From positions 1 to 64,000 of the forward strand of contig CAILKP010000069.1 in the NCBI GenBank assembly GCA_903834785.1: a DNA stretch of 64,000 nt, given 5' to 3'. Shown one piece after another: positions 29,120 through 47,292 of this stretch. A model generated the notes under the pieces. The model was not told the origin of the DNA and made no database searches. It saw nothing but the letters and a program-made list of their open reading frames with translations. The DNA comes from an uncultured bacterium (lineage in GTDB: Bacteria > Planctomycetota > Phycisphaerae > Phycisphaerales > UBA1924). Each line of letters begins with the position of its first letter. The first letter of the stretch is position 1. A program made the translations under genes and the position numbers.

Positions 29120-31456
29120 TTACGCCGCAGCGCGGGCACCGGCACTGAAGTTCGCCTGCATCTGGGCGAAGGTGAGCACGGCGTAGCCACCGGAGTTCTC
29201 GCTGGACGTGCCGCTGACACCCCAGGGGTTGCGGACGGTGTAGCGGGCGACGCCATTTCCATCCCGCGTCGCGCTGATGAGCGTGTAGGCGTGGCCGCCG
29301 ACAAGGTTCGCCGGACGCGACACGGTGCCGAAGGTGATCGCGTTGCGGTTGCTCAGACCGCTGCTCATGGAGTTGTAGAAGTCGGCATCGGACTGGCTGA
29401 GGCTGATGAACGATGACGACTTGCCAAAGGCGTTGTTCACCTCGCCCATCCAGCCGCCGTTGAGTGAGGCGTAGGTGTTGGCCCCGCGGCGGAAGTGAGC
29501 GAAGGCCTTCTCCATCACCTGGGCCCACATGGTGTTGTTCGCACCGGCATGAGCAAACCGCATCCCGCCGAAACCGCCGGTCGGCATCGCGTTGCTCACA
29601 CGGGTGTGCACGTTCACACCGTTGCGCTTGAACTCGACGATGTAAGTGCCGTCGCCCAGATCAACCGCGGCCTCCTGCATCACCGCAGGGTTCACGGCGG
29701 CAAAGGCAGCGATGGAAGCCAGGAAGTAGCAGTCGCCGATGGCACCCTGATTGATGTCCGTCGCACTGGGGCCGCTGCCGAACAGCGACTTGTTCACGCG
29801 AGTGGTGTTGCCCGAATCGGTGGGATTGGGCAGGGCGGCGCCGGGTGCCAGTGAGACGTTGCCGGCCAGCGCCTGGATGACGTGGTTCGTGCCCACGCCG
29901 CTGACGATGTCGGTCCGGTCCACCCAGATCGACGTGTTGGTGGCGTTGGCGGTGATGCGGCTGCTGCCGTAGGCCAGCGCCGAGATCACCGTCCGTGCGG
30001 TCACGCTCGAATCGATGGTGATGGTGTCGCCGCCGCCGCGGTCGTAGATGAACAGCCCTGAAGTCGTCACCGAACTCGTGAAGGTCTGGCCGTTGATGCT
30101 GATCGTCAGTTCACTGCCACCCTGGCTGACATTGATGATGTCGGCACCCGGGAAGCTGGTGATGACCAGCTCGCTGCCGTAGCGGCTGGCGATGGTGACG
30201 GTGCTGGTGCCCTGGGCGCGAGCGGCCGAGGCCGCGGCCGACGCGTCGCTGTTGAGCGAACCGAAGAACGCACGCACCTTGTAGTGAAAGGTCTGACCGG
30301 GCGTTGCAGACGTATCGGTGTACGCGCGGGCCGTGCTGCTAGCCACCGTCGCCAGATCCGAGTACGTCTGTCCATCAGCCGAGCGCATGATCTTGTACCC
30401 GACGCCGGCCCGGTTGGAATCCGCCCACGTCACGCTCACGTTCGGGCCGTTGGCCGCGGCGGTCACGCTGCGCGGGGTGTTCAGCAGGGTCGTCACGCTC
30501 GCCGCGGGTGACACGCCGGCGCTGACCACGCCGTTGGTTGCGAGCACGCGGTACATGTAGTTGGTGGCCGTCGCCACCGCAGTGTCCGTGTAGGTCGTGG
30601 CCGTGCGGGTCAGCGTGGCCAGAACAGTGTAGGTCCGTCCGCCGTCGGTGCTTCGCTGCACCACCGCGTTGCGGGCGTTGGCATCTATACCGCTCCAGCT
30701 CATCGAGACGCTGGTGGCCGCCGCGGTTACGTTAAACTCGCCCGGATTCGTCAGCGAGATCGAGGCGCGAATCGCGGTCGTCCAGGCCGAGGCGTTGCTA
30801 TCAGTCGTTGCCCGCAGCTGATACAGGTACGACACGCCGGTGGTGATCGTCGAGTCCGTGTAGGTAGCCGTCGTGTTGTCGTTTATCGTCGTCAGCAGCG
30901 AGTACGTGCGGCCGTCGGTCGAACGCATCACCCGGAAGCCGGTGGCGTTGGCGTCGTTGCCGCGCCAGCGGAGCTCAACAGAGCTCGAGCCGTTGATCGT
31001 CACCGCCACGGCCGAGGGGGGAACCAGCGGAGTTGTCAGCGGCACCGACATCGCCTCGCCGGTAAGACCCGAAGCCGAGTAGGAGACCACCTTATAGCGG
31101 TACCCGTTGTTGGAGGTCACCGAGGTGTCGGTGAACACCGTCGTCAGTCGCGTCGTGATCCGTGAGAGCTGGGTGTACTCGCCGTTGTTCGTAGAGCGCA
31201 GGATGTTGTACCCGGTGACGCGGGTGTCCGTGTTGGTCCAGGTCAGGCGAATGCTGTTGGGTGCGACAGTGGTCGCCACGTTGGCAGGGTTCACCAGGCC
31301 GGCACCGAGGATCGGCAGCGAGCCCGACATCAGCGAGCGTTGCTCGAGTTGTTCGAACTGGTCCGAGAGCTCAACGAAGGAGTCGATCCGGTGCTGAGCC
31401 GTGACGGGACCATGGGGACGTGACAGAATCGAGTTGCGCGAGCAGAGGGTGAGCAT
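29120..31456 (-). CDS. surface protein with four FN3 domains and a C-terminal calpain-like protease
   Basis: 778 residues. The N-terminus carries FEQLEQRSLMSG, close to the LEPR-XLL motif of planctomycete exported proteins, without a classical signal peptide. Four fibronectin type III repeats follow (about 55-145, 147-235, 237-325, 327-415), each with the W...Y core and a DGRTY-type turn. A beta-rich segment runs from 420 to 530. The C-terminal domain (about 555-778) is a calpain family (C2) cysteine protease with Cys in QGAIGDCYFLASIAA, His in GGHAYTLISA and Asn in VRNPWG. No Ca-binding EF-hands are visible. It is probably exported and cell-surface attached. Confidence 0.85.
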   Translation of the reverse strand: MLTLCSRNSILSRPHGPVTAQHRIDSFVELSDQFEQLEQRSLMSGSLPILGAGLVNPANVATTVAPNSIRLTWTNTDTRVTGYNILRSTNNGEYTQLSRITTRLTTVFTDTSVTSNNGYRYKVVSYSASGLTGEAMSVPLTTPLVPPSAVAVTINGSSSVELRWRGNDANATGFRVMRSTDGRTYSLLTTINDNTTATYTDSTITTGVSYLYQLRATTDSNASAWTTAIRASISLTNPGEFNVTAAATSVSMSWSGIDANARNAVVQRSTDGGRTYTVLATLTRTATTYTDTAVATATNYMYRVLATNGVVSAGVSPAASVTTLLNTPRSVTAAANGPNVSVTWADSNRAGVGYKIMRSADGQTYSDLATVASSTARAYTDTSATPGQTFHYKVRAFFGSLNSDASAAASAARAQGTSTVTIASRYGSELVITSFPGADIINVSQGGSELTISINGQTFTSSVTTSGLFIYDRGGGDTITIDSSVTARTVISALAYGSSRITANATNTSIWVDRTDIVSGVGTNHVIQALAGNVSLAPGAALPNPTDSGNTTRVNKSLFGSGPSATDINQGAIGDCYFLASIAAFAAVNPAVMQEAAVDLGDGTYIVEFKRNGVNVHTRVSNAMPTGGFGGMRFAHAGANNTMWAQVMEKAFAHFRRGANTYASLNGGWMGEVNNAFGKSSSFISLSQSDADFYNSMSSGLSNRNAITFGTVSRPANLVGGHAYTLISATRDGNGVARYTVRNPWGVSGTSSENSGGYAVLTFAQMQANFSAGARAAA

Positions 31457-31736: not shown

Positions 31737-32420
31737 TCACCGAGCGCGGCGGCGGCGGAACGCAGCCACTCCGGCCAGACCCAGCACCGCGGCGGCACCC
31801 GGCGTCGGCACCGTCACCTGGGCCACAAAGTTGGCAACACCCGTCACCGGATCACCGCCGAAGCTGAACTGCGACCAGCTGCCGTTGCTAAACGTGGTGG
31901 CGTTGTTGGTGTAAAAGCCAACGCTCTGGCCGAAGGTCGATGAGCACTGGAAGCCGAAGTCCCCGGCGTACGAGTAGTTCTGCACGCCGATGGACCAGCC
32001 GATGTTGTTGAATCCGCCCAGCGTCGAAACGCCCGGCAGCGGAATCGTGACATAGAAGAAGCCCGGTGCCCCACCCTCCAGCGCGGGAAGCTGAACATTG
32101 GTCAGCGTCGTGCTGTACAGCGTGGCCGCGCTGCCGAAGACCAGACCCGAAGGGTCGCCATCGTTAAACGTGAACGTCAGATCCGTCGTGCCCGCAGCCA
32201 CGGGGCCGGAGGCCGATACGGCGAAGCCAAGAGTGATGTCCCGCAGACCCACCGCCGGACCGAAGCCCAGCCAGCCGCTATCGGCATACCGCAGCGACGA
32301 CGGGCTGTTGGCGTTAAACGGCGTGAAATAGCCGTTGTCAAAGCCCGCATTGAACACAGTCTGGGCCGATGCGGCAGAACCGGCAGCGGCAACGATCGCA
32401 ACAGCAAGCACAACTCTCAT
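31737..32420 (-). CDS. secreted protein with PEP-CTERM-like (VPTPGA) anchor
   Basis: 227 residues. Signal peptide MRVVLAVAIVAAAGSAASAQ. The body is Gly/Ser/Thr/Phe-rich and beta-like, with no enzymatic motif. The C-terminus has VPTPGAAAVLGLAGVAAF followed by RRRR, the short motif-helix-Arg-cluster pattern used by PEP-CTERM/exosortase-like sorting in Phycisphaerae. It is likely a surface or matrix protein of unknown function. It diverges from the TPR-alpha-CTD gene and has its own terminator. Confidence 0.78.
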   Translation of the reverse strand: MRVVLAVAIVAAAGSAASAQTVFNAGFDNGYFTPFNANSPSSLRYADSGWLGFGPAVGLRDITLGFAVSASGPVAAGTTDLTFTFNDGDPSGLVFGSAATLYSTTLTNVQLPALEGGAPGFFYVTIPLPGVSTLGGFNNIGWSIGVQNYSYAGDFGFQCSSTFGQSVGFYTNNATTFSNGSWSQFSFGGDPVTGVANFVAQVTVPTPGAAAVLGLAGVAAFRRRRAR

Positions 32421-32673: not shown

Positions 32674-33615
32674 ATGAGCACCATTGGGCTCGGACTCGAC
32701 ACGGTTATTGGCGGGCAGGAAATCAAGCGCGACGCTGCCGTCGCCAAGCAGCACTTCGATCTGGCCATTAAGGCCGAGGGCGCCGGCAACCACGATGGCG
32801 CACTGGCCGAGCTCCGCAAGGCTGTTGCCGCGGATCCCGGTGATCAGCGTGCACTGTTCAAGCTCGCTCTCCTGCTTGACATGTCCGGCGAGGATGAGGA
32901 GGCCATCGGCTTCTACGAGCAGATCGTCGAACACCCCCCCGCGCCGATCAACGCTCTGCTCAACCTGGCGACCCTCTACGAGGACCGCGGCGAGTTCGCC
33001 AAGGCCGAGCGCTGCCTCAAGCAGGTGCTCGACACCGACGCCAACCACCCCCGCGCCCGTCTGTTCATGCTCGACGTTCAGGCCAGCAAGGGCATGATCA
33101 AGGAAGATGACGGCGAGAAGGACCGCTTCAAGCGTTCCGCCCTGCTGGACACCCCGGTCACGGACTTCGAGCTCTCCGTCCGGGCCCGCACCTGCCTCAA
33201 GAAGATGTCCATCCGCACCCTCGGCGATCTGATCAAGACCACCGAAGCCGAGTTGCTCAGCTACAAGAACTTCGGCGACAACTCCCTGGTGGAGATCAAG
33301 CAGATGCTCGCGGCCAAGGGCCTCAAGCTCGGCCAGGGCCGCGACGAGGCACACCGCGCCGTCCGCAAGCAGATGATCGACCAGTACAAGGGCACGGCTC
33401 AGGAGGGCATCCTCCAGAAGGCCGTCAGCGAGCTGAACCTCTCGGTTCGCGCCCGCAAGGCCCTGCAGCTGCTGAACATCCACACCCTCGGCGAGCTCAT
33501 CGCTCACACCGAGGCCGAACTGCTCGGCGTCAAGAACTTCGGCGCCACCTCCCTGGCCGAGGTTCGCCAGAAGCTCAACGAGTTCGGCCTGCTGCTCCGC
33601 AAGATCGACGCGTAA
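32674..33615 (+). CDS. TPR protein with two RNA polymerase alpha-CTD-like domains
   Basis: 313 residues. Residues about 20-140 are TPR repeats (HFDLAIKAEGAGNHDGALAELRKAVAADP; LLNLATLYEDRGEFAKAERCL). Two copies of an alpha-CTD-like helix-hairpin-helix domain follow. The first (about 160-225) reads VTDFELSVRARTCLKKMSIR then TLGDLIKTTEAELLSYKNFG. The second (about 250-313) has LNLSVRARKALQLLNIHT then TEAELLGVKNFGATSLAEV. Both closely follow the RNA polymerase alpha C-terminal domain, yet no alpha N-terminal domain is present. It could bind DNA or RNA polymerase partners. Relatives are annotated in planctomycetes as alpha-CTD proteins; function unknown. It ends with a strong terminator. Confidence 0.85.
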   Translation: MSTIGLGLDTVIGGQEIKRDAAVAKQHFDLAIKAEGAGNHDGALAELRKAVAADPGDQRALFKLALLLDMSGEDEEAIGFYEQIVEHPPAPINALLNLATLYEDRGEFAKAERCLKQVLDTDANHPRARLFMLDVQASKGMIKEDDGEKDRFKRSALLDTPVTDFELSVRARTCLKKMSIRTLGDLIKTTEAELLSYKNFGDNSLVEIKQMLAAKGLKLGQGRDEAHRAVRKQMIDQYKGTAQEGILQKAVSELNLSVRARKALQLLNIHTLGELIAHTEAELLGVKNFGATSLAEVRQKLNEFGLLLRKIDA

Positions 33616-33678: not shown

Positions 33679-33825
33679 GTGGGAGTCTCTGATCACTTGA
33701 AGGTCGACGGTGTCGGAAGCCCTGCTCGATGAGCGAACATCCAAGACCAGCACTGACGAGGCCGTCCTCACAGATCTATGATCGAGCGAGGGACAAACCT
33801 CCCACCCAACTTGGAGAGCAAAGAG

Positions 33826-34716
33826 ATGAACGCTGTCAGGAACTTCACTGGTCTCATGATCGTCGCGGCACTGGCCGGCACCGCCTCAGCCCAGACGTCG
33901 TACACCTATCTGGCCATCGGTGACTCGGTCGGCTTCGGCATCACCAACGGTGCGAGCTACACCCAGTTTTCCAACGGTGACCGCGGCTACGTCTCACTGT
34001 TCGCCGATTACCTGACGACGCAGAACGTCGGCCTGCGGCCCACCGTCCGCAACATCTCCATCTTCGGTGATGACACCGTGACGCTGGGCAACACCTCCAA
34101 CCCCGCCCGGGTCCTGAACACCAACTACCCGCTGTTCCCGGCGGTCAGCCAGCTCGACTTCATCTCCACTCAGATCGCCCAGGCCTCCCTGGCCGGCCGG
34201 CCGGTTCAGCGGGTCACCGTTTCCATGGGTGCCAACGACCTGCTCGGCGTCGTCCAGCAGCCCGGCTTCCTGGCGCTGCCCTCGCTCCAGCAGGCCGCCC
34301 TGGTGTTTGGCGCACTGAACACGGCGCAGAACAACCTCGCCTCGCTGTACGGCTCGCTTCGTGCGCAGCTGCCGACCGCCGAGATCATCGCCGTCGGGTA
34401 CTACGACCCCTTTGCCGTGCTGCCCGGCAACCCGAACCCCGCGCTGACCGCCGGGGCCATCAACCAGCTCAACCAGATCATCCAGGCCACCAGCACCGCG
34501 TTCGGTGCCCGCTATGTCGACGTCTACTCGGCCTTCTCGGGCAACGAGGCCGTGCTGACCAACATGCTGCTGGACCAGACCACCACAGCCCCCAACGTGC
34601 ACCCCACGGATGCGGGGTACCAGGTCATCGCCAATCAGATCATCCCGACCCCGGGCGCCGGTCTGGTCATGGCCACCGGCCTGGTGGTCCTCAGCCGCCG
34701 CCGCCGCACCGCCTGA
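33826..34716 (+). CDS. secreted SGNH/GDSL hydrolase with VPTPGA-type C-terminal anchor
   Basis: 296 residues. Signal peptide MNAVRNFTGLMIVAALAGTASAQ, then the GDSL block YLAIGDSVGFG with the nucleophile Ser, block III SMGANDLLG and block V NVHPTDAGY with the catalytic Asp/His. It is a Ser esterase/lipase of the SGNH fold, substrate unknown. The C-terminus has IPTPGAGLVMATGLVVLS and RRRRTA, the same anchor type as the neighbours. ATG 33826 is preceded by TTGGAGAG; the longer frame from 33778 lacks a signal start. Confidence 0.86.
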   Translation: MNAVRNFTGLMIVAALAGTASAQTSYTYLAIGDSVGFGITNGASYTQFSNGDRGYVSLFADYLTTQNVGLRPTVRNISIFGDDTVTLGNTSNPARVLNTNYPLFPAVSQLDFISTQIAQASLAGRPVQRVTVSMGANDLLGVVQQPGFLALPSLQQAALVFGALNTAQNNLASLYGSLRAQLPTAEIIAVGYYDPFAVLPGNPNPALTAGAINQLNQIIQATSTAFGARYVDVYSAFSGNEAVLTNMLLDQTTTAPNVHPTDAGYQVIANQIIPTPGAGLVMATGLVVLSRRRRTA

Positions 34717-35090: not shown

Positions 35091-35104
35091 CAAGGAGAGA
35101 TTTG

Positions 35105-35626
35105 ATGAATCGTGATATCGCATTTGGTACCTTCGCCGTTCTGCTCACCGCTGGCTCAGCGATGGCACAGGTGTTCGCTGGCAGCACCACCGGTGACCCG
35201 GTCTGGACCCGGCCTGTCGCCGGCACGCCGCCGGTCGGCCTTTCGGGTGTCGGCACGGCCACCCCGTACGACGTTCTGGCCTTCACCGTCGACATCACCG
35301 GCTCTTACACGTTCCAGAACACGGCCGTTGCCGCTTGGGACAACTACACCTTCCTGTACCAGAACTCATTTGACTCGACGCTGCCCCTGGCCAATGTGCT
35401 GACCGGCAACGATGACAACCCCGGCATCGGCCTGTCGGGGTTTGCCAGCAACCTCACCGCTGGTACGACCTACTTCTTCGTGACCACCGGCTTCGGCAAC
35501 TCCGACTCCGGTGACTACAGCCTGTCGATCAGCGGGCAGGGTATCGCGACGATCGTTCCGGCCCCGGGCGCCGCCGCACTGCTGGGCCTTGGCGGCCTTG
35601 CGCTGACTCGCCGTCGCCGTCGCTGA
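35105..35626 (+). CDS. small secreted protein with VPAPGA-type C-terminal anchor
   Basis: 173 residues. Signal peptide MNRDIAFGTFAVLLTAGSAMAQ, then a beta-rich body with TGSYTFQNTAVAAWDNYTFLYQ and LTAGTTYFFVTTGFGNSDSG, reminiscent of pre-peptidase C-terminal-like or DVUA0089-like beta domains. The C-terminus has VPAPGAAALLGLGGLAL and RRRRR. ATG 35105 lies 8 bases after AAGGAG (35091-35096); TTG 35102 is a less likely start. Likely a cell-surface protein of unknown role. Confidence 0.78.
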   Translation: MNRDIAFGTFAVLLTAGSAMAQVFAGSTTGDPVWTRPVAGTPPVGLSGVGTATPYDVLAFTVDITGSYTFQNTAVAAWDNYTFLYQNSFDSTLPLANVLTGNDDNPGIGLSGFASNLTAGTTYFFVTTGFGNSDSGDYSLSISGQGIATIVPAPGAAALLGLGGLALTRRRRR

Positions 35627-36029: not shown

Positions 36030-36584
36030 GTGGTAAACGACTCCTCTATCGCATCACTTGCCGCAGCCGAACTTGACGGCATCGCCGCGCCGCGTACAGC
36101 ACGCGTTCGCGTCGTCCACACCGATGGGATGTGGCGGGTACTGGCGATGGAGCACATCGGCCATGGCGAACTCATCCTCGAAATCAAAGGCGTGCTGGTC
36201 GACCAACCATCGCGGTACACCGTCCAGATCGGCGAAGGGGTACACATCGCGCCAGCACCGGGGAGGGACGACCCCAGCCGCGGCGACGATCCGCCGTCGT
36301 ACCCCTGGCAGTTCCTGAATCACTCGTGCGATCCAAACGCAGTGATCGCGGGGACAAACCTGGTCGCTCATCGTCGCATCGACGCTGGGCAGGAGGTCAC
36401 ATTCGACTACAACACGACGGAGTACGAGATGGCGACGCCCTTTGCCTGTCAGTGCCAGGCATGCGGTGACGGTGGCAGTCTGATCGCCGGCTTCCGGTTT
36501 CTCCCAACCCCGCGGCAGCGTGAGATGTACCCTCGCCTGGCGGAGCACCTCCGCCGCAAGCTGGGCGGGTCCGGAGCGACCTGA
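36030..36584 (+). CDS. SET-domain protein (putative protein/amine lysine methyltransferase)
   Basis: About 184 residues. The SET core is clear: MEHIGHGELILEIKG at the N-terminal strand region, FLNHSCDPNAVI (residues about 95-106, the S-adenosylmethionine/pseudoknot motif NHSCxPN), AGQEVTFDYNTTEYEMATPFACQCQAC, i.e. the catalytic DYN tyrosine region followed by a post-SET CxC..C zinc site. SET enzymes methylate lysine amines using S-adenosylmethionine. The start is uncertain: GTG 36030 was chosen because the frame upstream is Pro-rich and unlike the family. Its stop is only 3 bases before the ATG of the large NRPS gene, so the two are translationally coupled. Bacterial SET genes beside an NRPS are unusual. 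Confidence 0.83.
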   Translation: MVNDSSIASLAAAELDGIAAPRTARVRVVHTDGMWRVLAMEHIGHGELILEIKGVLVDQPSRYTVQIGEGVHIAPAPGRDDPSRGDDPPSYPWQFLNHSCDPNAVIAGTNLVAHRRIDAGQEVTFDYNTTEYEMATPFACQCQACGDGGSLIAGFRFLPTPRQREMYPRLAEHLRRKLGGSGAT

Positions 36585-36587
36585 GCG

Positions 36588-39500
36588 ATGCCCGACGCGT
36601 CTGACCAGACACCCCGGCTGCTTCACGACTTCTTTGCCGCCTCGGTGCGGGCGCACAGCGAACGCATCGCCGTTGATGTACCGCCGGACGGCCGCGGCGG
36701 TCATCGACAGACTGTGACCTACCGCGAGCTCGACGAGCAGTCCGACGCGATCGCCCAGTCGCTGGGCGCACTGCCGCCGGACACACTGGTGGCGGTGATG
36801 CTGCCTCGAAGCTCGTACCTGGTGTACGGGGCACAACTCGGGATCCTGAAGGCGGGTGGCGCGTTTGCCTGCATCGATCCGAGCTTCCCGGATTCTCACG
36901 TGCAGTCGGTGCTGGACGATGCCGGCAACCCGGTCCTGCTGACTGATGCCGCGGGAGCGGCACGAACGGCGGCCGCCGGAGTGCGGGCGGCGCGGGTAAT
37001 CGACATCACCGATGCAGCAGCGCTTCGACCCGACATGCACGCGACAGCCGCACGGGACCGAACGACGGTTCAGCCCGAGCACTTGTGCTATGTGATCTAC
37101 ACATCAGGCACAACGGGTAAGCCCAAGGGTGTGCTGATCGAGCACCGCTCGATCGTGAACCTGGTAGGCTCGGATGTCGCCGAGTTCGGACTGACGCCGG
37201 ACGACCGCGTGGCACAGGGCTCGTCTGCGGCGTACGACTCGTCGATCGAGGAAACCTGGCTGGCACTGGCGGCTGGCGCGACCGTCGTCGTGATGGACGA
37301 CCACACCGCACGCCTGGGGCCCGACCTGGTGGCGTGGCTGCGCCACGAGCGAGTGAGCGTGTTCTGCCCGCCGCCCACCCTGCTGCGCACGACCGGATGC
37401 GAGGACCCGGCAAGCGAGCTGCCGGACCTGCGGCTGCTGTACGTCGGCGGTGAAGCGTTGCCGGATGATCTGGTGGAGCGATGGGCCAGAGGCCGCCGGC
37501 TCGTCAACGGATACGGCCCGACTGAGTGCACGGTGACGGTTGTGCGAGGTGACGTGCGAGTCGGCGAAACGGTGACGATCGGCGATCCGGTACCCGGACA
37601 CACGGCGTGGGTTCTGGATACAGACCTGTGCGAGGTACCCCGCGGCGAACCGGGTGAGTTGTGCCTGGCGGGCATCGGTCTGGCTCGCGGGTACCGCAAT
37701 CGGCCTGAAGTGACGGCGGAGAAGTTCCCGACGCATCCGATCCTGGGGCGGATCTACCGCACGGGCGATCTGGTCACACAGAATCCAGACGGCTCGTACA
37801 ACTATCTCGGCCGGATCGATGGACAGGTCAAGCTCCGCGGTTACCGCGTGGAGCTTGAGGCCGTCGAGGCGCACCTGGCTCGCTGTCCCGGAGTTCGGGA
37901 GGCGGCCTGCCGGGTGCAGGGTATCGGCAGCGCGCAGCTGCTGACGGCACACATCGTGCCACTGATTCCGAACGATCCCCCCGACTTTGCGGAACTCAGC
38001 GGCTCGCTTCGGGGGGTGCTGCCGATGTACATGGTGCCGGCCCGCTACGGCCTCATCAGCGAACTGCCGCGAACCGTGGGTGGCAAGCTTGACCGCAAGC
38101 GACTGCCTGAACTGGCCGGTGCGGCCAGTCAGGCCGCCAGAGGCGATCGCGAGCCAGTTGCGCCGCGCACCGAGACTGAACGCACTGTGGCCGCGGCATT
38201 TGCGCGTGCGATATCCGCCGTCATCAGTGCAACCGGAACCTCTGGCACCCAGGTGGATGCTGTATCGGTGCTTGATGACTTCTTTATCGACCTTGGCGGT
38301 GATTCACTCTCAGCTGTCGGTGTGGTGTGCTCGCTAAGAGAACGCCCCGAAACCGCGGCAGTGACAACTCGCGACTTATACGAAACACGGACCGCTGCCG
38401 CACTGGCGGCACGGCTGGATGGACGCACAGCAACACGGCACCCCGTGAGGCGGGGAACCTGCGGACCGGTGAGCGGTGCCGCGATCCATCCGGTGAAGGT
38501 GACGGTGTTGCAGATGATCTGGCTCGCCGTGCAGTTGGTGGTGGCCAGTGCGGCGGGATACACGATCCTGTACGAGCTCTTTCCGCTCGCGCTCGAGCAC
38601 TTCGGCGTCCTTGGCACGCTCGCACTCGAACCAGTCGCCGCGGCGATCGGCGTCGTCATCTACACGCTGTGCATGGTGGGGCTGACGGCAGGTCTGAAGT
38701 GGACACTGATCGGCCGGTATGAACCGGGACGTTCTCCGGTCTGGAGCTGGTTCTACCTGCGGCACTGGATGGTCACGGGGGCGGCACGGATGATCCCTTG
38801 GGGACTGCTCTCGGGCACGGTGCTGTACGGCACCGTGCTGCGGGCGCTGGGCGCACATGTCGGGCGAGGCGTCCACATCCACCGCGGCGTCAACTTGGCC
38901 CAGGGAGGATGGGATCTGCTGACCATCGGTGACGGGGCCACACTTGCGTGCGATTCGCACATCGGGCTTGCTGAACTCGAGAGCGGGCAGCTGTGCATCG
39001 GTCCGGTGACCATCGGCCCCGATGCAACCGTCGACATCCGCGCCACCATCAGCGGGGGCGCACAGATCGGCCGCAGCGGCGTACTGGCACCCCTGAGCTG
39101 GCTCCCAGGCGGTCAGCAGATTCCCGACAACGAGTGCTGGAGCGGCGTTCCGGCCGTGCACACGGGCCCTGCGGAAGAGCGTGCTCTCGAGGGGGACAGC
39201 CGCGAGTTGTCTGCGGTGCTGTACTCGATCATTCAACTGGCCATGGCGGGCGCTTCGCACGCCGCGGCGATGCTGCCGGTCCTCGTCGGGCTGTACGCCC
39301 TGGCGACAGCGCTGTCGATCAGCCCGGAGGTCGTCGGTCAGTGGCTCAGCGACCCGGAGTGGACGGCCACCTCGCTGGCGCTGATGCTGGTGGCGGGCAT
39401 GGTGTGGGTGCCGGTATCACTGGCCGCCCGGGCTCTGGCGGTCCGCTGGTTCGGCCGGGTGCGTCCCGGGGTGGTGCACCGCTGGAGCGTTCCATATGCG

Positions 39501-41774
39501 CTCGCAGCGCACAAGACCCACGAGGTGGAGGAAGCAGGAAGGTGGCTCAGCGGGACCCTGTACTGGCCGGTGTGGCTGAGACTGGCGGGGATGAAGATCG
39601 GCCGTGACTGCGAGATCAGCACCATCACGGGCGTCGTACCCGAGTTGGTGGAGATCGGCCGGGGGAGTTTCTTTGCCGATGGAATCTATCTTGGCGGCCC
39701 GCACGTGCGCCGGGGGATGGCCACCCTTGGCCGGACGGTGCTGGGAAGCGGAACGTTTCTGGGCAATCACGTGGTGATCCAGGCCGGCGTGACAATGCCG
39801 CCGGGCACGTTTCTGGGCGTGTGCACCGTGGCGGATGCGTCGCTGGCGGGTCGAGCCACGGCGGACAGTTCGTGGTTCGGCGTGCCGGCGATGGAACTGC
39901 CGCGGCGGGAGGTAGTCAGCGTGGACCGCTCACTGACGCACGAGCCCGGCTTCTGGCGGTACACCTCTCGGGTGTTCTGGGAGTCGCTGCGGTTCGCGTT
40001 ACCGGTGGTGCCGCTGTGCGCCGGTGCGATCTGGCTGTGGCTGATGGCACTGGGATCGGAGGATGCGGGGTGGGCGGTGTGGGCACTGGTGATGGCACCC
40101 GCCGCGACGCTGGCGGTTGTCGTCGCTGAGTGTCTGCTGGTGGTGGCGATGAAATGGGCCCTACTCGGCCGCGCGAGGGCTGGGCAGCACCCGCTCTGGT
40201 CGTGCTGGTGCAGCCGCTGGGACTTTCTGTATGTCGCGTGGCAGTTCTACGCGGTGCGGGCACTGGCCGCACTGGAGGGCACGCTGCTGCTGGCGGTGTA
40301 TCTGCGGGCGATGGGTGTGCGGATCGGCCGTCGCGTGGTGCTGGGTCCCGGATTCGTCCAGGTGGCCGACCCGGACATGATCATCATCGAGGATGACGCG
40401 ACAGTCAGCGCGAACTATCAGGCGCACAGTTTCGAGGACCGCGTCCTGAAGCTGGCCCCGGTGACGGTTCAGCGTGGTGCCACGGTGGGCGAGTCGGCGG
40501 TCGTGTTCTACGGGGCGGACATCGGTGATGGTGCATGGGTGAGTCCCAACAGCGTCGTGATGAAAAACGAGGTCCTCGGCGCCGCTGAGACGTTCGCCGG
40601 GTGCCCGGTACAACCGGTCGATGCCGACGCTGACACCGCGGCGACCGAAGACCCAGTGACGGGACTGACGCCTGCAGCCCCGGCGACTTCGGGCCGCTTG
40701 GCAGAGCTTGATCTCGCCCGCGGCGTGGCGGTCATCGGCATGATCTACATGCACTTTGTACCGGCCGAGACCGTTCAGCCGGGGTTGCTCGGCGAATCGG
40801 CGGCGTGGCTCGCGGCGGCCCTGGAGGGCAAGGCGGCGGCACTGTTCTGCATCCTCGCCGGGATGACCTGGGAGCTGCAAGGCCGGAACCGTCGCGGCAA
40901 CGCACGGCCCGGCTGGCAGCACCTGATCCGACGGTCCGGCACGCTGGCGATTGTCGGTGTGGCATTCCACGCACTGGTGTGGCCGACATCGATCCTGCTT
41001 CCCTTTGCGGTGATGATGCTGCTGTCGGGGCTGATCCATCGGTCGGGAGTGCGAGCGGTACTGCTGGCCGCCGCACTGTGCCTTGTGCTGGCACCGGCGG
41101 TGGTACGGTGGCTCGGAGACTACAGCCAGACTGACTGGAACGCCGACGGCAGCCACCGGGCCGACTCGGAACTGGGATGGGCGACACTCCGGTGGTTGGT
41201 CTTCGACGGACACTACCCGCTGGTGCCGTGGCTGGCATTCCCGCTCATCGGCATGGCACTGATGGCCTGGCACCGCGACGGCTCGCGGCCGCTGCGGGCC
41301 TGGTTCGCCCCTGCCGCGGCCGTGGCAATCCTCTCGCAGGCCTATGTCTGGTGGGCAGATGCGAGCACCGAGACACTCGGCCCGCTGACGCCCTATCTCA
41401 CAAGCACATGGCTGCCGACTTCACTGGTGTTTGTCGTGCTGACCGGCAGTTCGGCACTGGCGGTCATCAGTGGTGCGGCATGGCTGTTCGGCCGCGGGGT
41501 CGGGTGCGAGGCGAGCACACCTCAATCCGGCCTCGCCGGCACACTGGCGCTCGTCGGCCGGGCCTCGCTGAGCCACTATCTGCTGCACCTGTGCGTGGTG
41601 TACGCCCCACTGCGTGCGTTACTAGGCCACGAGGAATGGTCGGTGCAGACCGGCCTGATCGCCTTCGCCGGGTATCTGGCGCTTGCCGTGCCGCTGACGG
41701 CGCTGTGGTTCCGCCGCTTCCGTCAAGGACCCGCCGAGTGGGCGTGGGCGCGTGCCTCCGGATCGGCGGCATGA
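36588..41774 (+). CDS. Pls/PosA-type single-module NRPS fused to an acyltransferase-like membrane domain
   Basis: 1,728 residues. An adenylation domain fills about 1-510: YTSGTTGKPKG (about 171), YDSSIEETW (Asp217), NGYGPTE, YRTGDL, GRIDGQVKLRGYRVE and the A10 lysine in VGGKLDRK. A carrier domain follows with FFIDLGGDSLSAV (phosphopantetheine Ser573). No ordinary condensation or thioesterase domain is present. Instead there are membrane segments alternating with three left-handed beta-helix (hexapeptide) regions near 750-850, 1000-1105 and 1240-1345, the architecture of the terminal region of epsilon-poly-L-lysine synthetase (Pls) and related poly-amino-acid synthetases. An extra C-terminal region from about 1365 begins LDLARGVAVIGMIYMHF and ends with a DUF418-like segment (GRASLSHYLLHL), resembling membrane acyltransferases. 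The product is inferred to be a homopoly- or acylated amino acid. Confidence 0.88.
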   Translation: MPDASDQTPRLLHDFFAASVRAHSERIAVDVPPDGRGGHRQTVTYRELDEQSDAIAQSLGALPPDTLVAVMLPRSSYLVYGAQLGILKAGGAFACIDPSFPDSHVQSVLDDAGNPVLLTDAAGAARTAAAGVRAARVIDITDAAALRPDMHATAARDRTTVQPEHLCYVIYTSGTTGKPKGVLIEHRSIVNLVGSDVAEFGLTPDDRVAQGSSAAYDSSIEETWLALAAGATVVVMDDHTARLGPDLVAWLRHERVSVFCPPPTLLRTTGCEDPASELPDLRLLYVGGEALPDDLVERWARGRRLVNGYGPTECTVTVVRGDVRVGETVTIGDPVPGHTAWVLDTDLCEVPRGEPGELCLAGIGLARGYRNRPEVTAEKFPTHPILGRIYRTGDLVTQNPDGSYNYLGRIDGQVKLRGYRVELEAVEAHLARCPGVREAACRVQGIGSAQLLTAHIVPLIPNDPPDFAELSGSLRGVLPMYMVPARYGLISELPRTVGGKLDRKRLPELAGAASQAARGDREPVAPRTETERTVAAAFARAISAVISATGTSGTQVDAVSVLDDFFIDLGGDSLSAVGVVCSLRERPETAAVTTRDLYETRTAAALAARLDGRTATRHPVRRGTCGPVSGAAIHPVKVTVLQMIWLAVQLVVASAAGYTILYELFPLALEHFGVLGTLALEPVAAAIGVVIYTLCMVGLTAGLKWTLIGRYEPGRSPVWSWFYLRHWMVTGAARMIPWGLLSGTVLYGTVLRALGAHVGRGVHIHRGVNLAQGGWDLLTIGDGATLACDSHIGLAELESGQLCIGPVTIGPDATVDIRATISGGAQIGRSGVLAPLSWLPGGQQIPDNECWSGVPAVHTGPAEERALEGDSRELSAVLYSIIQLAMAGASHAAAMLPVLVGLYALATALSISPEVVGQWLSDPEWTATSLALMLVAGMVWVPVSLAARALAVRWFGRVRPGVVHRWSVPYALAAHKTHEVEEAGRWLSGTLYWPVWLRLAGMKIGRDCEISTITGVVPELVEIGRGSFFADGIYLGGPHVRRGMATLGRTVLGSGTFLGNHVVIQAGVTMPPGTFLGVCTVADASLAGRATADSSWFGVPAMELPRREVVSVDRSLTHEPGFWRYTSRVFWESLRFALPVVPLCAGAIWLWLMALGSEDAGWAVWALVMAPAATLAVVVAECLLVVAMKWALLGRARAGQHPLWSCWCSRWDFLYVAWQFYAVRALAALEGTLLLAVYLRAMGVRIGRRVVLGPGFVQVADPDMIIIEDDATVSANYQAHSFEDRVLKLAPVTVQRGATVGESAVVFYGADIGDGAWVSPNSVVMKNEVLGAAETFAGCPVQPVDADADTAATEDPVTGLTPAAPATSGRLAELDLARGVAVIGMIYMHFVPAETVQPGLLGESAAWLAAALEGKAAALFCILAGMTWELQGRNRRGNARPGWQHLIRRSGTLAIVGVAFHALVWPTSILLPFAVMMLLSGLIHRSGVRAVLLAAALCLVLAPAVVRWLGDYSQTDWNADGSHRADSELGWATLRWLVFDGHYPLVPWLAFPLIGMALMAWHRDGSRPLRAWFAPAAAVAILSQAYVWWADASTETLGPLTPYLTSTWLPTSLVFVVLTGSSALAVISGAAWLFGRGVGCEASTPQSGLAGTLALVGRASLSHYLLHLCVVYAPLRALLGHEEWSVQTGLIAFAGYLALAVPLTALWFRRFRQGPAEWAWARASGSAA

Positions 41775-41777
41775 CCT

Positions 41778-42317
41778 GTGCGCACCGCCAGCGTCAGGAT
41801 GTCGGGTGCTGCGGGCCAGAGCGTACACTGCCGCGTGCATCCCGATCTGTTGCCACCATCCGATGTTCCGCCCGCGTACTGCTGCGCCATTCTGCTGGAT
41901 CGCGCAGGCCGGTTGCTGCTGGAACGGCGACCCAGCGACGATGCCGACGCCCCCGGACAGCTGACTTGCTTTGGTGGCGGGCGGGAGGCGGGGGAAGATC
42001 CGCTGATCTGCTTGCGGCGGGAACTGCTTGAGGAGATCGGCTTTGCCGTCGGCATCGCCTCGCACGTGCTGACGCTGCACACGCCGGCGGGCCCGGCGTG
42101 GTTCTATCTGGCCGAAGGACCGCTGGCGGGGACGGTGCGGGCCCACGAGCCCGGCCATGAGGCTGTCTGGCTGGAGCGTGCCGCACTCATGACCGCCCCG
42201 CTGGCCGACTGGCACGATGCGGCACTGCGGGCCTGGCACTCCGGCGAGCCGGAAGCCTGGGTGCAAGGGATGCGCCCGCGTGAGTGGTGGATAAAGAAAA
42301 ACAGCCGCCCGGGTTAA
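41778..42317 (+). CDS. Nudix hydrolase
   Basis: About 179 residues from GTG 41778, or 172 from ATG 41799. The Nudix box is complete: GGGREAGEDPLICLRRELLEEIG, matching G-x5-E-x7-R-E-x-x-E-E-x-G, so it should hydrolyse a nucleoside diphosphate linked to another moiety, with Mg2+. The substrate cannot be told. The gene begins 3 bases after the NRPS stop and is the last of the SET-NRPS-Nudix operon. It could be a housecleaning enzyme for adenylated by-products, but that is speculation. Its stop codon lies in the loop of the following hairpin. Confidence 0.87.
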   Translation: MRTASVRMSGAAGQSVHCRVHPDLLPPSDVPPAYCCAILLDRAGRLLLERRPSDDADAPGQLTCFGGGREAGEDPLICLRRELLEEIGFAVGIASHVLTLHTPAGPAWFYLAEGPLAGTVRAHEPGHEAVWLERAALMTAPLADWHDAALRAWHSGEPEAWVQGMRPREWWIKKNSRPG

Positions 42318-42329
42318 ACCGGGCGGCTG
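42302..42329 (-). terminator. terminator shared by phoD and the NRPS operon
   Basis: An 11-bp stem (cagccgcccgg / ccgggcggctg) with loop gttaaa. On the minus strand it is followed by TTTTTCTTT, a strong tail for the phoD side. On the plus strand only a CT-rich tail follows. Confidence 0.8.
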
Positions 42330-42403
42330 CTGCGGCAGGTCTCTCTCTCAAGCTCATTGAGTGCGCCGCACCGCGGCGGGCGTGAAGGGACGCAACGGAT
42401 AGA

Positions 42404-44170
42404 TCAGGCGTGTGCCCGCCGGCGGCGGCGGGCGACAAGCAAGCCAGCGAGACCGAGCAGTGCGCCGGTGGCGGGTGTGGGCACCGCACTGACGCGGAAC
42501 TGGCTGACGATCTCCGGGGTCAGCGAGGTGATCAAGGCCGGGTTCGCGTTCAGCTGCGCCTGGGTGTAGGGATCGATGCCCCAGGTCGTCACCAGCAGTT
42601 CCTGCGTGATGGCGTCGATGTTGAACTCGGTCCAGCCGAAGGTGTGCGTCGAGGCGTACGAACCGCTGACCAGCGTCGCGGGGATCCCCGAACCCTGCAG
42701 ACCGATGGGGTCGTAGCCCAGCGGAACCAACTGGGCGTTGAGCAGGTTCTCGATGAACCCGTCCTTGCCCTGCCGCGGGAGTGAGTTGTAGAACGCCGTC
42801 TGCGCTGGGGTGAGCAGGCCGAACTGGCTGGCAAGGCCGGCAACGGTCGGCCCGAACGGGGCATCGAAGGCAACGGAGCCGGTGGTGATCTCCCAAGCAT
42901 TCGTGGGGATCTGCGGCTGGCCGGGGCCGGTCTGGTATGTCAGGTTGTTGACCAGCGTGCCGTGGATGTCCGCCGAGATGAACACGACGTTGTCGATGTT
43001 GTTGTTGCGGATGAAGCTCAGCAGTTCCGTCCGCTCGGCGGCGTAGCCCTCGAAGCGATCCGAAGCACCCAGCACGCCGAGGTTCTGGATCGGCTCGTTG
43101 ATGTTGACGAACTTCCAGGTCGTGCCGTTCTGCTGGGCCGTGAGCAGGTCGTTCTTGAGGCGATTGAGCTGAGGGGTGCCCAGCAGCGTGCGCCCGGGCG
43201 TGAAGGATGCCGCGATGTACGCACCGATCGAAGCCGGATCAACGGGGTTGGCCGCCGGAAGCCCGGGGTCGCGGAAGCTGCGGGCATCCAGGACGCTGAC
43301 CTGCGCATCGGAGCCGTACGACTGGTTGCGGTAGAGGTCGGGGCGACCGTCAAAGCGGCTGTCGCCGGTTCCCGACCACACCCGCTGCTGGGTGGGGTGA
43401 TATTCCTGGAACGCGTGGATGCCGTTGCGGTAGAGCGTCGAGGTGTTGACCAGATCAGTCGGGGCTCCGGTGCCTGTGAACCGCGGGTCGGAGCCGATCG
43501 TCGCACCACCGATGAAGTCGTTGGTGACCTCGTGATCATCGATCGTGGCCAGCACCGACATGCTCGCACGCAGCGAGCGGAAGGTGTTCAGACCATAACG
43601 AGTGCTGTAGATCTCGTTGTGCTTGGCACGGAACTCACCGAGCGTGGTGGCCTGCGCGGCCGGAACGGCCGGCGAGGGATAGTCGGCGTAGATCGTGTCG
43701 CCCAGGGAGATCCAGAGTTCCAGGTTGCGGTCGGCAACGTTGCGAACGGCGGGGAATGGCGCAAGCTCACCCCGCCAGTCACCGGAGACGCCGAACCGCA
43801 GGCCGTTGCGCCCACCGGCGGCGGCGGTGCGGAACTGGCCGGCAGCGACGGAGCCCGCAGAATCCGTAGCGCGGTAGAAGTAGCGGGTGCCACCCGACAG
43901 CCCGGTGGCCGCCACGCGGACGGGCTCGGTCGGATCCGTCACCAGTGCGCCGTACGCACCGACGATGCTGCCGGCGGCAAAGTCCGGAGTCGTGGCAACC
44001 TCAAAGGTCACCGCACCGGTCTGGGTGCTGCGGGTCCACAGCACGGTGCTGCTGGTAGTCGTGTCACCGGAGGCGACACCGTTGGGAAGCGTCTCGATAC
44101 CGGCCGCGGCGGTACCGGCAGCGGCCAGCAGTACTGCGGCGGCGAACGGACGTGAAATCATCTTGATCAC
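42404..44170 (-). CDS. phoD: PhoD-type alkaline phosphatase with CTERM anchor
   Basis: 588 residues. Signal peptide MIKMISRPFAAAVLLAAAGTAAAG. An N-terminal beta domain follows (PNGVASGDTTTSSTVLWTR, typical of PhoD), then the catalytic core: FGVSGDWRG, SLGDTIYADY, IDDHEVTNDF, the NINEPIQ strand and VVFISADIHGTLVNN, which supply Ca/Fe-binding Asp/His residues. It releases phosphate from organic phosphomonoesters or diesters outside the cell. The C-terminus carries VPTPATGALLGLAGLLVA and RRRRRAHA, the same anchor as three other secreted proteins here. GTG 44170 is chosen because AGGAG precedes it by 7 bases. It lies behind the T2SS operon, from which a hairpin separates it. Confidence 0.9.
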   Translation of the reverse strand: MIKMISRPFAAAVLLAAAGTAAAGIETLPNGVASGDTTTSSTVLWTRSTQTGAVTFEVATTPDFAAGSIVGAYGALVTDPTEPVRVAATGLSGGTRYFYRATDSAGSVAAGQFRTAAAGGRNGLRFGVSGDWRGELAPFPAVRNVADRNLELWISLGDTIYADYPSPAVPAAQATTLGEFRAKHNEIYSTRYGLNTFRSLRASMSVLATIDDHEVTNDFIGGATIGSDPRFTGTGAPTDLVNTSTLYRNGIHAFQEYHPTQQRVWSGTGDSRFDGRPDLYRNQSYGSDAQVSVLDARSFRDPGLPAANPVDPASIGAYIAASFTPGRTLLGTPQLNRLKNDLLTAQQNGTTWKFVNINEPIQNLGVLGASDRFEGYAAERTELLSFIRNNNIDNVVFISADIHGTLVNNLTYQTGPGQPQIPTNAWEITTGSVAFDAPFGPTVAGLASQFGLLTPAQTAFYNSLPRQGKDGFIENLLNAQLVPLGYDPIGLQGSGIPATLVSGSYASTHTFGWTEFNIDAITQELLVTTWGIDPYTQAQLNANPALITSLTPEIVSQFRVSAVPTPATGALLGLAGLLVARRRRRAHA

Positions 44171-44343
44171 GATGCATCTCCTCACAAGGAAGGGATCTCT
44201 CTTGGCCACCGATGGGTACCGCCACGTGAGCGGAAGGGACATCCACCACCGAAGGCCCGTCATCAAGTGTGGCCCCGGCACGGTGCTTGCGCGGCCCCGG
44301 CCGCATCAAGAGTCAGTGATAGTTGCGCAAAGACCAATGCAAA

Positions 44344-44435: not shown

Positions 44436-47195
44436 TCACTCGCCGCCGCGGAGCCCGGGCGGGTCCTGCATGATCGGCGGGGCGACGGGTGGTGCGCCCG
44501 CATCGGGCTTGCTGCGGAGTTCGCCCATTTCCTGCCTGAGCTCCTCGAGCCGTTTACGTGCCGGCTCGTTGAGTTGCTTCATCTCGGTCGGGTTGTTGAC
44601 GACCACTGGCGTGATGAACGCGACGAGCTCGGTGCGTGTCTTGATCTTCTCGATGTTGGTGAACAAGGCACCCAGCAGCGGGATATCACCGAGCCCCGGG
44701 ATCTTGCGCTTCACGTCGGAGTCTTCGCTGCGGAGGATGCCGGAAATGACGACCGTCTGACCGTCCTGGACGATCAGCTGCGTGGTGGTTTCGCGGCGGT
44801 CGACGACGGCCTGGTTGTTGACCGTCCGGGAGGGATCCACACTCGACAGTTCGAGATTGACCTTGATGTCGACGTCACGCTCGGGCGTGATGCGCGGGCG
44901 GACACGCAGGGCGATGCCCACGGCCTTGTAATCAAAGCTGTTGACCACGTTCTGGTTGTTACCCGTGGGCACCTGTGAGTTGGTGATAAACGGGATGTCC
45001 TGACCGTCGAAGAACTCGGCCTGCTGGTTGTCGCCGGTGAAGATTCGCGGCTCGGAAAGAATGGTGACCTTGCTGGTCTGGGCCAGTGCCTGCAGGAGGA
45101 TGTTCAGATCAACACCCACGTTCAGGACGCTGGTGTCAAACAGCCCGGGGAGCAGATCGTTCTTCGTACCGGTGATCGGCTGGGTGACGTTGCCCGCGGC
45201 ATTGCGGCTGCCGCCGATGGCCACGGTGTTGTCCTGACGCGTCGGCGTGATACCCGTCTGGCTGAAGCGAACGCCCAGGGCGGTGGAGTCGTCCAGCGAG
45301 ATCTCGGCGATGATCGCAGAGATCAGCACCTGCCGTCCGGGACGGTCGAGCCGATTGATCAGCTCGTTGATGGCCTTGCGATACTCAACGGGAGCCAGGA
45401 CCATCAGCGCGTTCTGCCGGGCAACGGGGACGACACGGGCCTTGGCCACCAGGTTGCCGCTGCCGGCGTTGTCCGTGGGCACCCGTGCGCGGGACCACCA
45501 GAACGTCAGGTTGTTGTTCGCCGCGGTCTGCTGGTTGGCCTGCGTGGTGGTCTGGTCGGTCGTGCTGGCGGCAAACGGTGATGAGTTGGTCGCGCTGGTA
45601 GCCAGAGTCGAGTCCGTCCGCCTCACCTGAGCGACGGTGCCTTCCTGTGCCAGCAGGGCGTTGATCTGCTCGGCGAGATCCTCGGCGGTGGCGTGCTTGA
45701 GTTCGATTACATCAGGGATCATCGAAGTGACGGGCTTGTCGAGCTCCTCGATGACCTTCTCGATGACATCGAGGTTGTCGGGGCTCTTGGACACCACGAT
45801 GATGCGCGACGCCTCGGGAATGGCCTGGAAGCTGAACTGCCCAGCGAGCCGCCCGGTGCCCGTGGTGGAACCGGCACGGTTGGCCTGATTTCCGCCGCCA
45901 CCGCCACCCTGCGTGGTGGTGGCGGTGCCCTTGCCAAAGAGTCCCTCGAGCACATCGCGGATCTTGATCGCGTCGGTGTTCTTGAGGTCAAAGACGCGCG
46001 GCACAACCGCCTCCTCAGGCAGCGGGCGGTCCCACTGCTCGAGCACCTGTGTGCGGATCTGGTCGATGACGTTCTGTTCGGCCACCACGGTCACCGCGTT
46101 CTGCTGGGTGTTGGCCGTGACGCGGAGGTTGTTGCTGGTGGCAGCCGCAGCGGTGCCACCGCCCTGCTGGTTGTTGCCCCCGCGCCCGCCCTGCTGGTTG
46201 TTCCCACCGCCCTGGAACTGCCGGATGAACTGCTGCATCTGCTGGTTGCGGTTCGTGTTGTTCTGCTGGCCGCCGCGGCCGGCGGTCGTGCCGTCACCGT
46301 AGAGGTCGCGGATGTTCTGGGCGATCACTTCAGCATCCGCGTACTTCAGGTGGAACGTGGCGCTGGCCAGGGACGCTGTGCTCGGACGATCCAGGGCCAG
46401 GAGCACTCGCTCGATGCGCTGGAGCAGTGCGATCGGTCCGGTGATCAGGATCTGGTTGCTCTCCGGCTCGATGGCGATCTTGGCGTAGTCGGGGATCGAA
46501 GGCTTGAGCACCTCGCCGATGGTGGTGGCCGTGCCCGACCGCAACTGGAAGATCTTCTGGGCTACGGTGCCCACATCGCCACGTTCAAGCGTCGAGACCT
46601 CCGGACCGAGGACCGGGATCGGCTGCTTGTCGATATCAACCTGATCGCGCAGGTAGATGATCGTGTCGTTCTCGATGATCGCCACACCGGTCTGCTGCAG
46701 TGCCAGGAAGACCAGGTCCAGTGCCTGTGAACGCGGGATCGGCTTGTCGTTGAGCAGCGTGATGCGGCGGGCCAGCACCTCCTGCTGCGGCAGCACGACC
46801 TTGCCCGTGCTCTCGACAATGAACGGGATCAACTGCTCGACGTTGACCTGCTTGAACGACAGCTTCGTCGGCTCACCGGGCAGGATGCGCCGGTTGAGCG
46901 AGTCAAACTTCATCTCCGGCTTGGCCTCTGCAGCCTTGGCCTCGGGCGCCTTGCCGTCGGTCGCGGCGGCCGCACCAGGCGTGGCCGGTGTTGCAGGAGT
47001 TGCAACAGGCGTCGTCGCCGGCGCTGCCGCAGCCTCGCCCGCAGGCGCAGGCGTCGTCGCCGGGGCTGGCGTTGGTGCAGAGGCCGGGGTTGGCGCGGGA
47101 GATGGCGCAGGCGTCCCGGGAACGCCCGGCTGAGCGAACGCGCTCAGGCACAGGCCGCAGCAGGAAATCAGAGCAACAGTGCGGCGATCAAGCAT
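44436..47195 (-). CDS. gspD: type II secretion outer-membrane secretin GspD
   Basis: 919 residues. Signal peptide (MLDRRTVALISCCGLCLSAFAQ), then a Pro/Ala/Thr-rich linker to about residue 90. Several N-domains follow (FHLKYADAEVIAQNIRDLYG; RVFDLKNTDAIKIRDVLEGLFG; IELKHATAEDLAEQINALL), with Asn/Gln/Gly-rich inserts. The C-terminal secretin domain contains KIPGLGDIPLLGALFTN and the beta-barrel region IVQDGQTVVISGILRSE. The multimer forms the exit gate for folded exoproteins. It is the last gene of the T2SS operon, 97 bp after the PilP-like gene. Confidence 0.94.
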   Translation of the reverse strand: MLDRRTVALISCCGLCLSAFAQPGVPGTPAPSPAPTPASAPTPAPATTPAPAGEAAAAPATTPVATPATPATPGAAAATDGKAPEAKAAEAKPEMKFDSLNRRILPGEPTKLSFKQVNVEQLIPFIVESTGKVVLPQQEVLARRITLLNDKPIPRSQALDLVFLALQQTGVAIIENDTIIYLRDQVDIDKQPIPVLGPEVSTLERGDVGTVAQKIFQLRSGTATTIGEVLKPSIPDYAKIAIEPESNQILITGPIALLQRIERVLLALDRPSTASLASATFHLKYADAEVIAQNIRDLYGDGTTAGRGGQQNNTNRNQQMQQFIRQFQGGGNNQQGGRGGNNQQGGGTAAAATSNNLRVTANTQQNAVTVVAEQNVIDQIRTQVLEQWDRPLPEEAVVPRVFDLKNTDAIKIRDVLEGLFGKGTATTTQGGGGGGNQANRAGSTTGTGRLAGQFSFQAIPEASRIIVVSKSPDNLDVIEKVIEELDKPVTSMIPDVIELKHATAEDLAEQINALLAQEGTVAQVRRTDSTLATSATNSSPFAASTTDQTTTQANQQTAANNNLTFWWSRARVPTDNAGSGNLVAKARVVPVARQNALMVLAPVEYRKAINELINRLDRPGRQVLISAIIAEISLDDSTALGVRFSQTGITPTRQDNTVAIGGSRNAAGNVTQPITGTKNDLLPGLFDTSVLNVGVDLNILLQALAQTSKVTILSEPRIFTGDNQQAEFFDGQDIPFITNSQVPTGNNQNVVNSFDYKAVGIALRVRPRITPERDVDIKVNLELSSVDPSRTVNNQAVVDRRETTTQLIVQDGQTVVISGILRSEDSDVKRKIPGLGDIPLLGALFTNIEKIKTRTELVAFITPVVVNNPTEMKQLNEPARKRLEELRQEMGELRSKPDAGAPPVAPPIMQDPPGLRGGE

Positions 47196-47292
47196 GACAG
47201 GTATCCGGTCGTTCGAGCGGGACAAGAACAAGAACAGTCAAGGACGGGTAGACAAAGGCGGCCAGCAGCCAGCAGCGATCACACGGCCACAC

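Follow-up and report, generated by a model that had tools for sequence, protein, structure and literature searches.

The window analysed here is a 64,000-nucleotide stretch (contig CAILKP010000069.1, positions 1 to 64,000) from an uncultured bacterium of the planctomycete order Phycisphaerales. It carries, close together and all transcribed from the + strand, a SET-domain methyltransferase gene, a gene for a Pls/PosA-type synthetase and a Nudix hydrolase gene. The SET gene (36030–36584) runs from a GTG start at 36030 to a TGA stop at 36582–36584 and encodes 184 amino acids that match Pfam PF00856 with 37 bits against a cut-off of 22.4. Its stop is followed, after three bases (36585–36587), by the ATG of the synthetase gene (36588–41774; 1,728 amino acids), and three more bases (41775–41777) lie between the synthetase and the GTG start of the Nudix gene (41778–42317; PF00293, 48.1 bits). 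The original prediction, made from the letters of the window, had described a SET gene, a 1,728-residue nonribosomal peptide synthetase (NRPS) and a Nudix gene with 3-base gaps, and the coordinates confirm this layout. The first two genes form a widely conserved pair, whose homologous copies overlap or are separated by short gaps. A profile search of the source genome (4.3 Mb, 161 contigs) found no second SET match.

The synthetase is built in the order adenylation (A) domain, carrier (T) domain, terminal membrane domain and acyltransferase domain. Its A domain (36636–38087) includes AMP-binding (residues 17–369, 238.7 bits) and AMP-binding_C (residues 426–500) matches, and its T domain (38250–38417; PP-binding, residues 555–610, 27.6 bits) carries the attachment motif LGGDSL. 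The Pls/PosA-type terminal domain follows (38508–40610; residues 641–1341), matching NCBIfam TIGR02353 with 388 bits, and the protein ends with a fused membrane acyltransferase domain (40695–41753) composed of HGSNAT_cat (PF07786, residues 1370–1568, 47.8 bits) and DUF418 (PF04235, residues 1608–1722, 39.4 bits), both above their Pfam cut-offs. Thus the A, T and terminal domains of the original prediction are all there, while the C-terminal acyltransferase had been overlooked. With a single A and a single T domain, and neither a condensation nor a thioesterase domain in the Pfam and NCBIfam scan, the protein shares the domain order of the epsilon-poly-L-lysine and delta-poly-L-ornithine synthetases that make up the Pls/PosA family (TIGR02353). 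It also shares with them Asp at position 1 and Glu at position 3 of the substrate pocket, and a terminal part of six helices and three soluble domains, each soluble domain lying behind a transmembrane helix pair. However, terminal domains of the subfamily score 336–399 bits, compared to 660–889 bits for canonical Streptomyces copies. Neither the window protein nor any other member from the order reaches the curated TIGR02353 cut-off of 423.1 bits, which is exceeded in 65 Streptomyces genomes; judged by its sequence, the window synthetase is therefore a separate branch of the Pls/PosA family and not a TIGR02353 equivalog.

Conservation of the pair was examined by searching 251 genomes of the order separately for SET and TIGR02353. 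About 36 of them contain a TIGR02353 match above 200 bits, and in 26 of these about 36 loci a SET frame lies directly upstream of the synthetase on the same strand. The nearest possible synthetase start falls between a few tens of bases before and 24 bp after the SET stop, and a 4-base overlap of the ATGA type is frequent. In one genome (G129, contig 28, 10702–10953, L075) the SET frame beside an intact synthetase frame appears to be frameshifted, by decay or by an assembly error.

A scan of 84,980 species genomes of GTDB, using an alignment of the A-domain pocket as query, yielded at least 59 subfamily loci at 56–80% identity, followed by a gap down to ordinary NRPS sequences at 49% and less. 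SET lies directly upstream in 31 of the 59 loci listed, or in 32 when the contig-split L161/L209 is counted. In 8 further genomes among them a subfamily SET is present but unlinked, and about 19 have none, including the Sphingomonadales and one Bacteriovoracaceae genome; several of these 19 genomes are incomplete. No substitute methyltransferase or other shared gene was found at the SET-less loci. Carriers of the pair include the actinomycetotal isolates Planosporangium (L103), Streptomyces nanshensis (L109) and Kutzneria buriramensis (L111), as well as metagenome genomes labelled as Armatimonadota (L112, L157), Verrucomicrobiota (L118, L130, L155) and Acidobacteriota (L122, L137). The pair is thus found in at least five phyla, in otherwise unrelated gene contexts; a conserved neighbourhood was what the original prediction had proposed to look for as its own check. 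At L122 the gap between the two genes is about 305 bp; at the other loci, the distance from the SET stop to a candidate start is about 60 bp or less. In the neighbourhood comparison, no gene was common to the loci besides the synthetase and, in some, the acyltransferase. Likewise, a Nudix homologue was found beside no other copy of the pair among the loci compared, so that the Nudix gene, originally counted as a member of the operon, was rejected as a conserved third gene.

Presence of the two genes is also correlated. In a sample of 343 Planctomycetota genomes, using thresholds of at least 171 bits for SET (the next best match scored 95) and at least 243 bits for the synthetase, 9 genomes contained SET, 12 the synthetase and 8 both (Fisher p = 1.0e-12). 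The only genome with SET and no synthetase is 77% complete. The dependence is one-sided: SET is almost never found without the synthetase, while the synthetase is often found without SET. Pairwise distances of the two proteins, calculated over 47 non-redundant pairs, give a correlation of r = 0.76; in 5000 permutations the value never exceeded 0.19. In a FastTree phylogeny, synthetases with a SET partner occur on both deep and shallow branches, and those lacking one fall into scattered groups. This is most simply read as an old partnership that was lost repeatedly, with the root uncertain, as rooting by an outgroup was unreliable (its branches are long and the outgroup did not form one clade).

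As a control, we examined 121 genomes from Streptomyces, to which S. nanshensis belongs. Of these, 65 contain about 90 canonical terminal domains in total, none with an adjacent SET. Any SET at all was found in 7 of the 121 genomes, and only that of S. nanshensis adjoins a terminal domain, one scoring 336 bits. The control shows that SET does not accompany Pls genes in general and ties it to this branch of synthetases.

From its core motifs, the pocket code of the window A domain was read by eye as DSECYGGVTK. The same code is present in nearly every member of the subfamily, SET-bearing or SET-less, and Asp at position 1 and Glu at position 3 were found in all pockets read. Position 2 is Ser, whereas the Lys-type pocket of epsilon-poly-L-lysine synthetase and of the canonical Streptomyces copies with a readable A domain (D A E ...) has Ala. 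Asp 1 is associated with the alpha-amine, Glu 3 with the cationic group of the side chain and residue 2 with the length of the chain (PMC10522769). Ser at position 2, together with Gly for Thr, would mean a roomier pocket, and in its residues the code is distinct from the Lys, Orn and diaminopropionate/diaminobutyrate (DAP/DAB) classes. The exact code is listed for a protein of the Bdellovibrionales, Bdello_A, whose A domain showed no preference for the known diamino acids and had modest activity with L-Arg (PMC10522769). These results do not support the polylysine-like product that had been predicted. Bdello_A is a clear member of the same subfamily (compare L128, from Bacteriovoracaceae); its A domain was tested alone and the paper mentions no SET (PMC10522769), and L128 is also without SET.

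An AlphaFold2 (AF2) model of the terminal domain, built from 13 sequences, has a predicted template modelling score (pTM) of 0.88 and consists of three repeats, each a transmembrane hairpin followed by a left-handed beta-helix. The nearest PDB folds found with Foldseek are maltose O-acetyltransferases. Acetyltransferases of this type bind a pantetheine thioester, which by analogy would suit transfer of an aminoacyl group from the carrier domain. The HGSNAT/DUF418 domain resembles known membrane acyltransferases but is fused to the synthetase, not only in the window but also in G119 and at L131, L132, L139 and L140. It is encoded by a separate next gene at L120, L124 and L157, and was also called beside L147; the acyltransferase, fused or adjacent, is therefore probably a part of the pathway in a minority of members. 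At L156, a gene resembling an Sfp-type phosphopantetheinyl transferase (13458–14075, read by eye) lies 40 bp downstream of a SET-less synthetase.

The SET proteins encoded beside the synthetases form a subfamily of their own, characterized in the alignment by RYSVQ....H, WRFLNHSC.PN and TFDY.TTE..MAEPF.C.CG. The window protein has the NHSC and FDYxTTE motifs and the post-SET CxC...C, and the H, C, Y, CxC and C columns are invariant throughout the subfamily. As the catalytic motifs are intact, methylation in this pathway is likely. When the subfamily profile was compared to PDB chains, the best match was BurB (69.5 bits), against 55.5 bits for MLL1, the best histone enzyme. An AF2 model of SET, with a predicted local distance difference test (pLDDT) value of 90, also found BurB with bound Met (9l4t, E 1.8e-9) as its first fold match. 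BurB is a SET-domain Met S-methyltransferase of the Burkholderia bur cluster that serves the NRPS-polyketide synthase (PKS) BurA (PMC7496086). Its substrate is free Met rather than a protein, and dimethylsulfoniopropionate (DMSP) derived from its product is loaded by the BurA A domain (PMC12542666, PMC7496086). Two elements are common to the subfamily and BurB but not to MLL1, namely a strand [YH][ST][VL]Q....H and the motif Y..TE. In BurB the strand contacts the amino group of Met, and Y..TE immediately precedes the carboxylate-binding residues. The Tyr at the position of BurB Tyr124 is kept in the subfamily, and the position of BurB Ser88 is an invariant Trp. Three other proteins (L216, L218, L219) belong to another bacterial SET subfamily (87–95 bits to the profile), which has a similar T.Q....H strand and is not located beside a synthetase. 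In G242, a genome of the same family as that of the window (contig 4, 272126–275602, L018), four SET matches lie within 3.5 kb, again with no synthetase.

We propose that the two genes form a module in which the synthetase activates and transfers a cationic amino acid and the BurB-like SET protein methylates that amino acid, a reading that we consider quite possible, though just short of probable. The proposal draws on the adjacency, co-occurrence and shared history of the genes, the SET motifs, the BurB-like fold, the pocket code and the domain architecture; from these we infer a small-molecule substrate, its identity, the methylated atom and a polymeric product. The synthetase would activate an alpha-amino acid that carries a positive charge and exceeds ornithine and lysine in size, and load it on its own carrier domain. 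The membrane-anchored, three-fold beta-helix domain would then pass it to an amine, which may be that of the next monomer, of the growing chain or of another acceptor. SET, as a small-molecule methyltransferase dependent on S-adenosylmethionine, would methylate the amino acid of the synthetase, most likely on a side-chain nitrogen, while it is free, carrier-bound or within the product. Methylation would most likely take place before or during residence on the synthetase and give a methylated cationic monomer or product. A roomy acidic pocket would fit an N-methylated lysine or an arginine-like residue, and SET chemistry fits a lysine side chain.

In favour of such a module are the adjacency, co-occurrence and correlated distances of the two genes, the free-Met methyltransferase BurB as nearest solved relative of SET by both profile and fold, and the preference of the same-code homologue for Arg over the known diamino acids (PMC10522769). 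Other observations weigh against it. The pocket is identical in SET-less genomes (SET-bearing and SET-less synthetases differ in one V/I column only) and the synthetase seems functional without SET; the unchanged pocket favours tailoring of a product over obligatory supply of a monomer. Moreover, the homology to BurB is distant, at about 25% identity, and LLHSC of BurB corresponds to NHSC in the window protein, which keeps the N of the protein-lysine enzymes. With this N kept and an invariant Trp at Ser88, the substrate could be something other than Met and may not even be a free molecule. In view of the same two differences, we would not classify the window-type SET as a BurB. The Met contacts in BurB are main-chain ones (PMC12542666). 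A small-molecule substrate is a good lead, for which Met is only one candidate.

A related explanation, which we think unlikely, is that a basic amino acid is joined by the synthetase into an isopeptide-linked homopolymer, whose amines are methylated by SET once the polymer is finished. It agrees with the Pls/PosA architecture and with the dispensability of SET, which is expected for a tailoring enzyme, and lysine side chains are the classical SET targets. Nevertheless, the pocket belongs to none of the Lys, Orn and DAP/DAB types, the homologue sharing its code showed no preference for diamino acids (PMC10522769), the nearest solved SET enzyme works on a free amino acid, and epsilon-linked polymers leave the alpha-amine free, unlike the usual SET substrate. 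Methylation of product amines as such, as originally suggested, is possible. The closeness to BurB in score, fold and the two shared motifs raises the alternative that SET is a functional BurB making S-methylmethionine, a cationic sulfonium amino acid that the A domain activates. The pocket Glu could bind a sulfonium and BurA is a precedent for loading sulfonium substrates (PMC7496086). This alternative is quite improbable in view of the Trp and NHSC differences, the retention of the same pocket in SET-less synthetases, and the lack, in S-methylmethionine, of a side-chain amine for an isopeptide polymer. In addition, BurB acts with BurI/D/E to provide DMSP, whereas no BurI/D/E-like genes lie beside the pair, and DMSP-pathway genes (decarboxylase, transaminase, dehydrogenase) are not conserved there in the loci compared.

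The SET fold and motifs are of the protein-lysine methyltransferase type, and tight translational coupling would suit modification of a partner, so SET might regulate the pathway by methylating a lysine of the synthetase or of another protein. We judge this highly improbable: all seven well conserved lysines of the synthetase, among them catalytic ones of the A domain, show the same conservation in copies without SET, and the pair has no other conserved neighbour. As no lysine is peculiar to SET-bearing loci, methylation of the synthetase itself is disfavoured. A merely coincidental gene order with no functional link, such as that of the neighbouring Nudix gene, has a close to negligible probability for the pair and is in practice refuted by the recurrence in unrelated contexts of at least five phyla, the co-occurrence (p = 1e-12) and the correlated distances.

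Contrary to the claim that SET genes beside NRPS genes had not been described, BurB serves an NRPS-PKS in the bur cluster (PMC7496086), and a SET gene beside an NRPS-type gene is therefore already known. The two systems are alike in encoding a small SET protein (about 170 amino acids in BurB) with an NRPS-type enzyme and in being nearest among solved structures by sequence and fold. They differ in that the BurA A domain is without Asp235, whereas that of the window keeps the Asp and belongs to a Pls-type synthetase with the DSECYGGVTK pocket, a SET partner carrying Trp for Ser88 and, in some members, the acyltransferase. In the open-access papers searched, we found no report of SET beside Pls or of methyl-lysine with NRPS, nor of the SET and Pls-type pairing, its conservation in five phyla, its association with the orphan pocket or the fused acyltransferase.

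To our knowledge, no SET enzyme other than BurB is known to act in the biosynthesis of natural products. With a second, unrelated pairing that is conserved in at least five phyla, the question of what bacterial SET enzymes do becomes testable in culturable carriers, namely K. buriramensis, Planosporangium flavigriseum and S. nanshensis. Pls-type products are antimicrobial and antifungal polycations. The conserved pair points to a methylated, positively charged natural product, and a Pls-type product carrying methyl groups would be a polymer of a new kind. The pair is also a genetic handle on the orphan DSECYGGVTK pocket. More broadly and more tentatively, the subfamily may represent an undescribed, widespread class of methylated cationic products, made jointly by a new Pls-type branch and a SET enzyme that acts specifically on a basic amino acid, either free or on the carrier, in a partnership that is ancestral and was repeatedly lost; we regard this as possible but rather doubtful. 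Products of such a class might be N-methylated or quaternary basic amino-acid polymers or conjugates.

Downstream of the pair, an inverted repeat with a 13-bp stem and a T-rich tail on the - strand (42300–42331) is a possible terminator between convergent genes. Elsewhere in the window, 32674–33615 (+) encodes tetratricopeptide (TPR) repeats fused to two RNA polymerase alpha C-terminal-like domains (PF03118, two stretches), and a 372-amino-acid open frame runs antisense through it. A large surface protein at 29120–31456 (-) has fibronectin-like repeats, a calpain-like end and an N-terminal FEQLEQRSLMSG stretch. Secreted proteins at 31737–32420, 33778–34716, 35102–35626 and 42404–44281 (a GDSL lipase, a PhoD phosphatase and others) share a sorting-like C-terminal tail, PTPGA..LGLAGL..RRRRR. 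A row of secretin-like and associated genes at 44436–50608 (-) resembles an operon for type II secretion or for a pilus.

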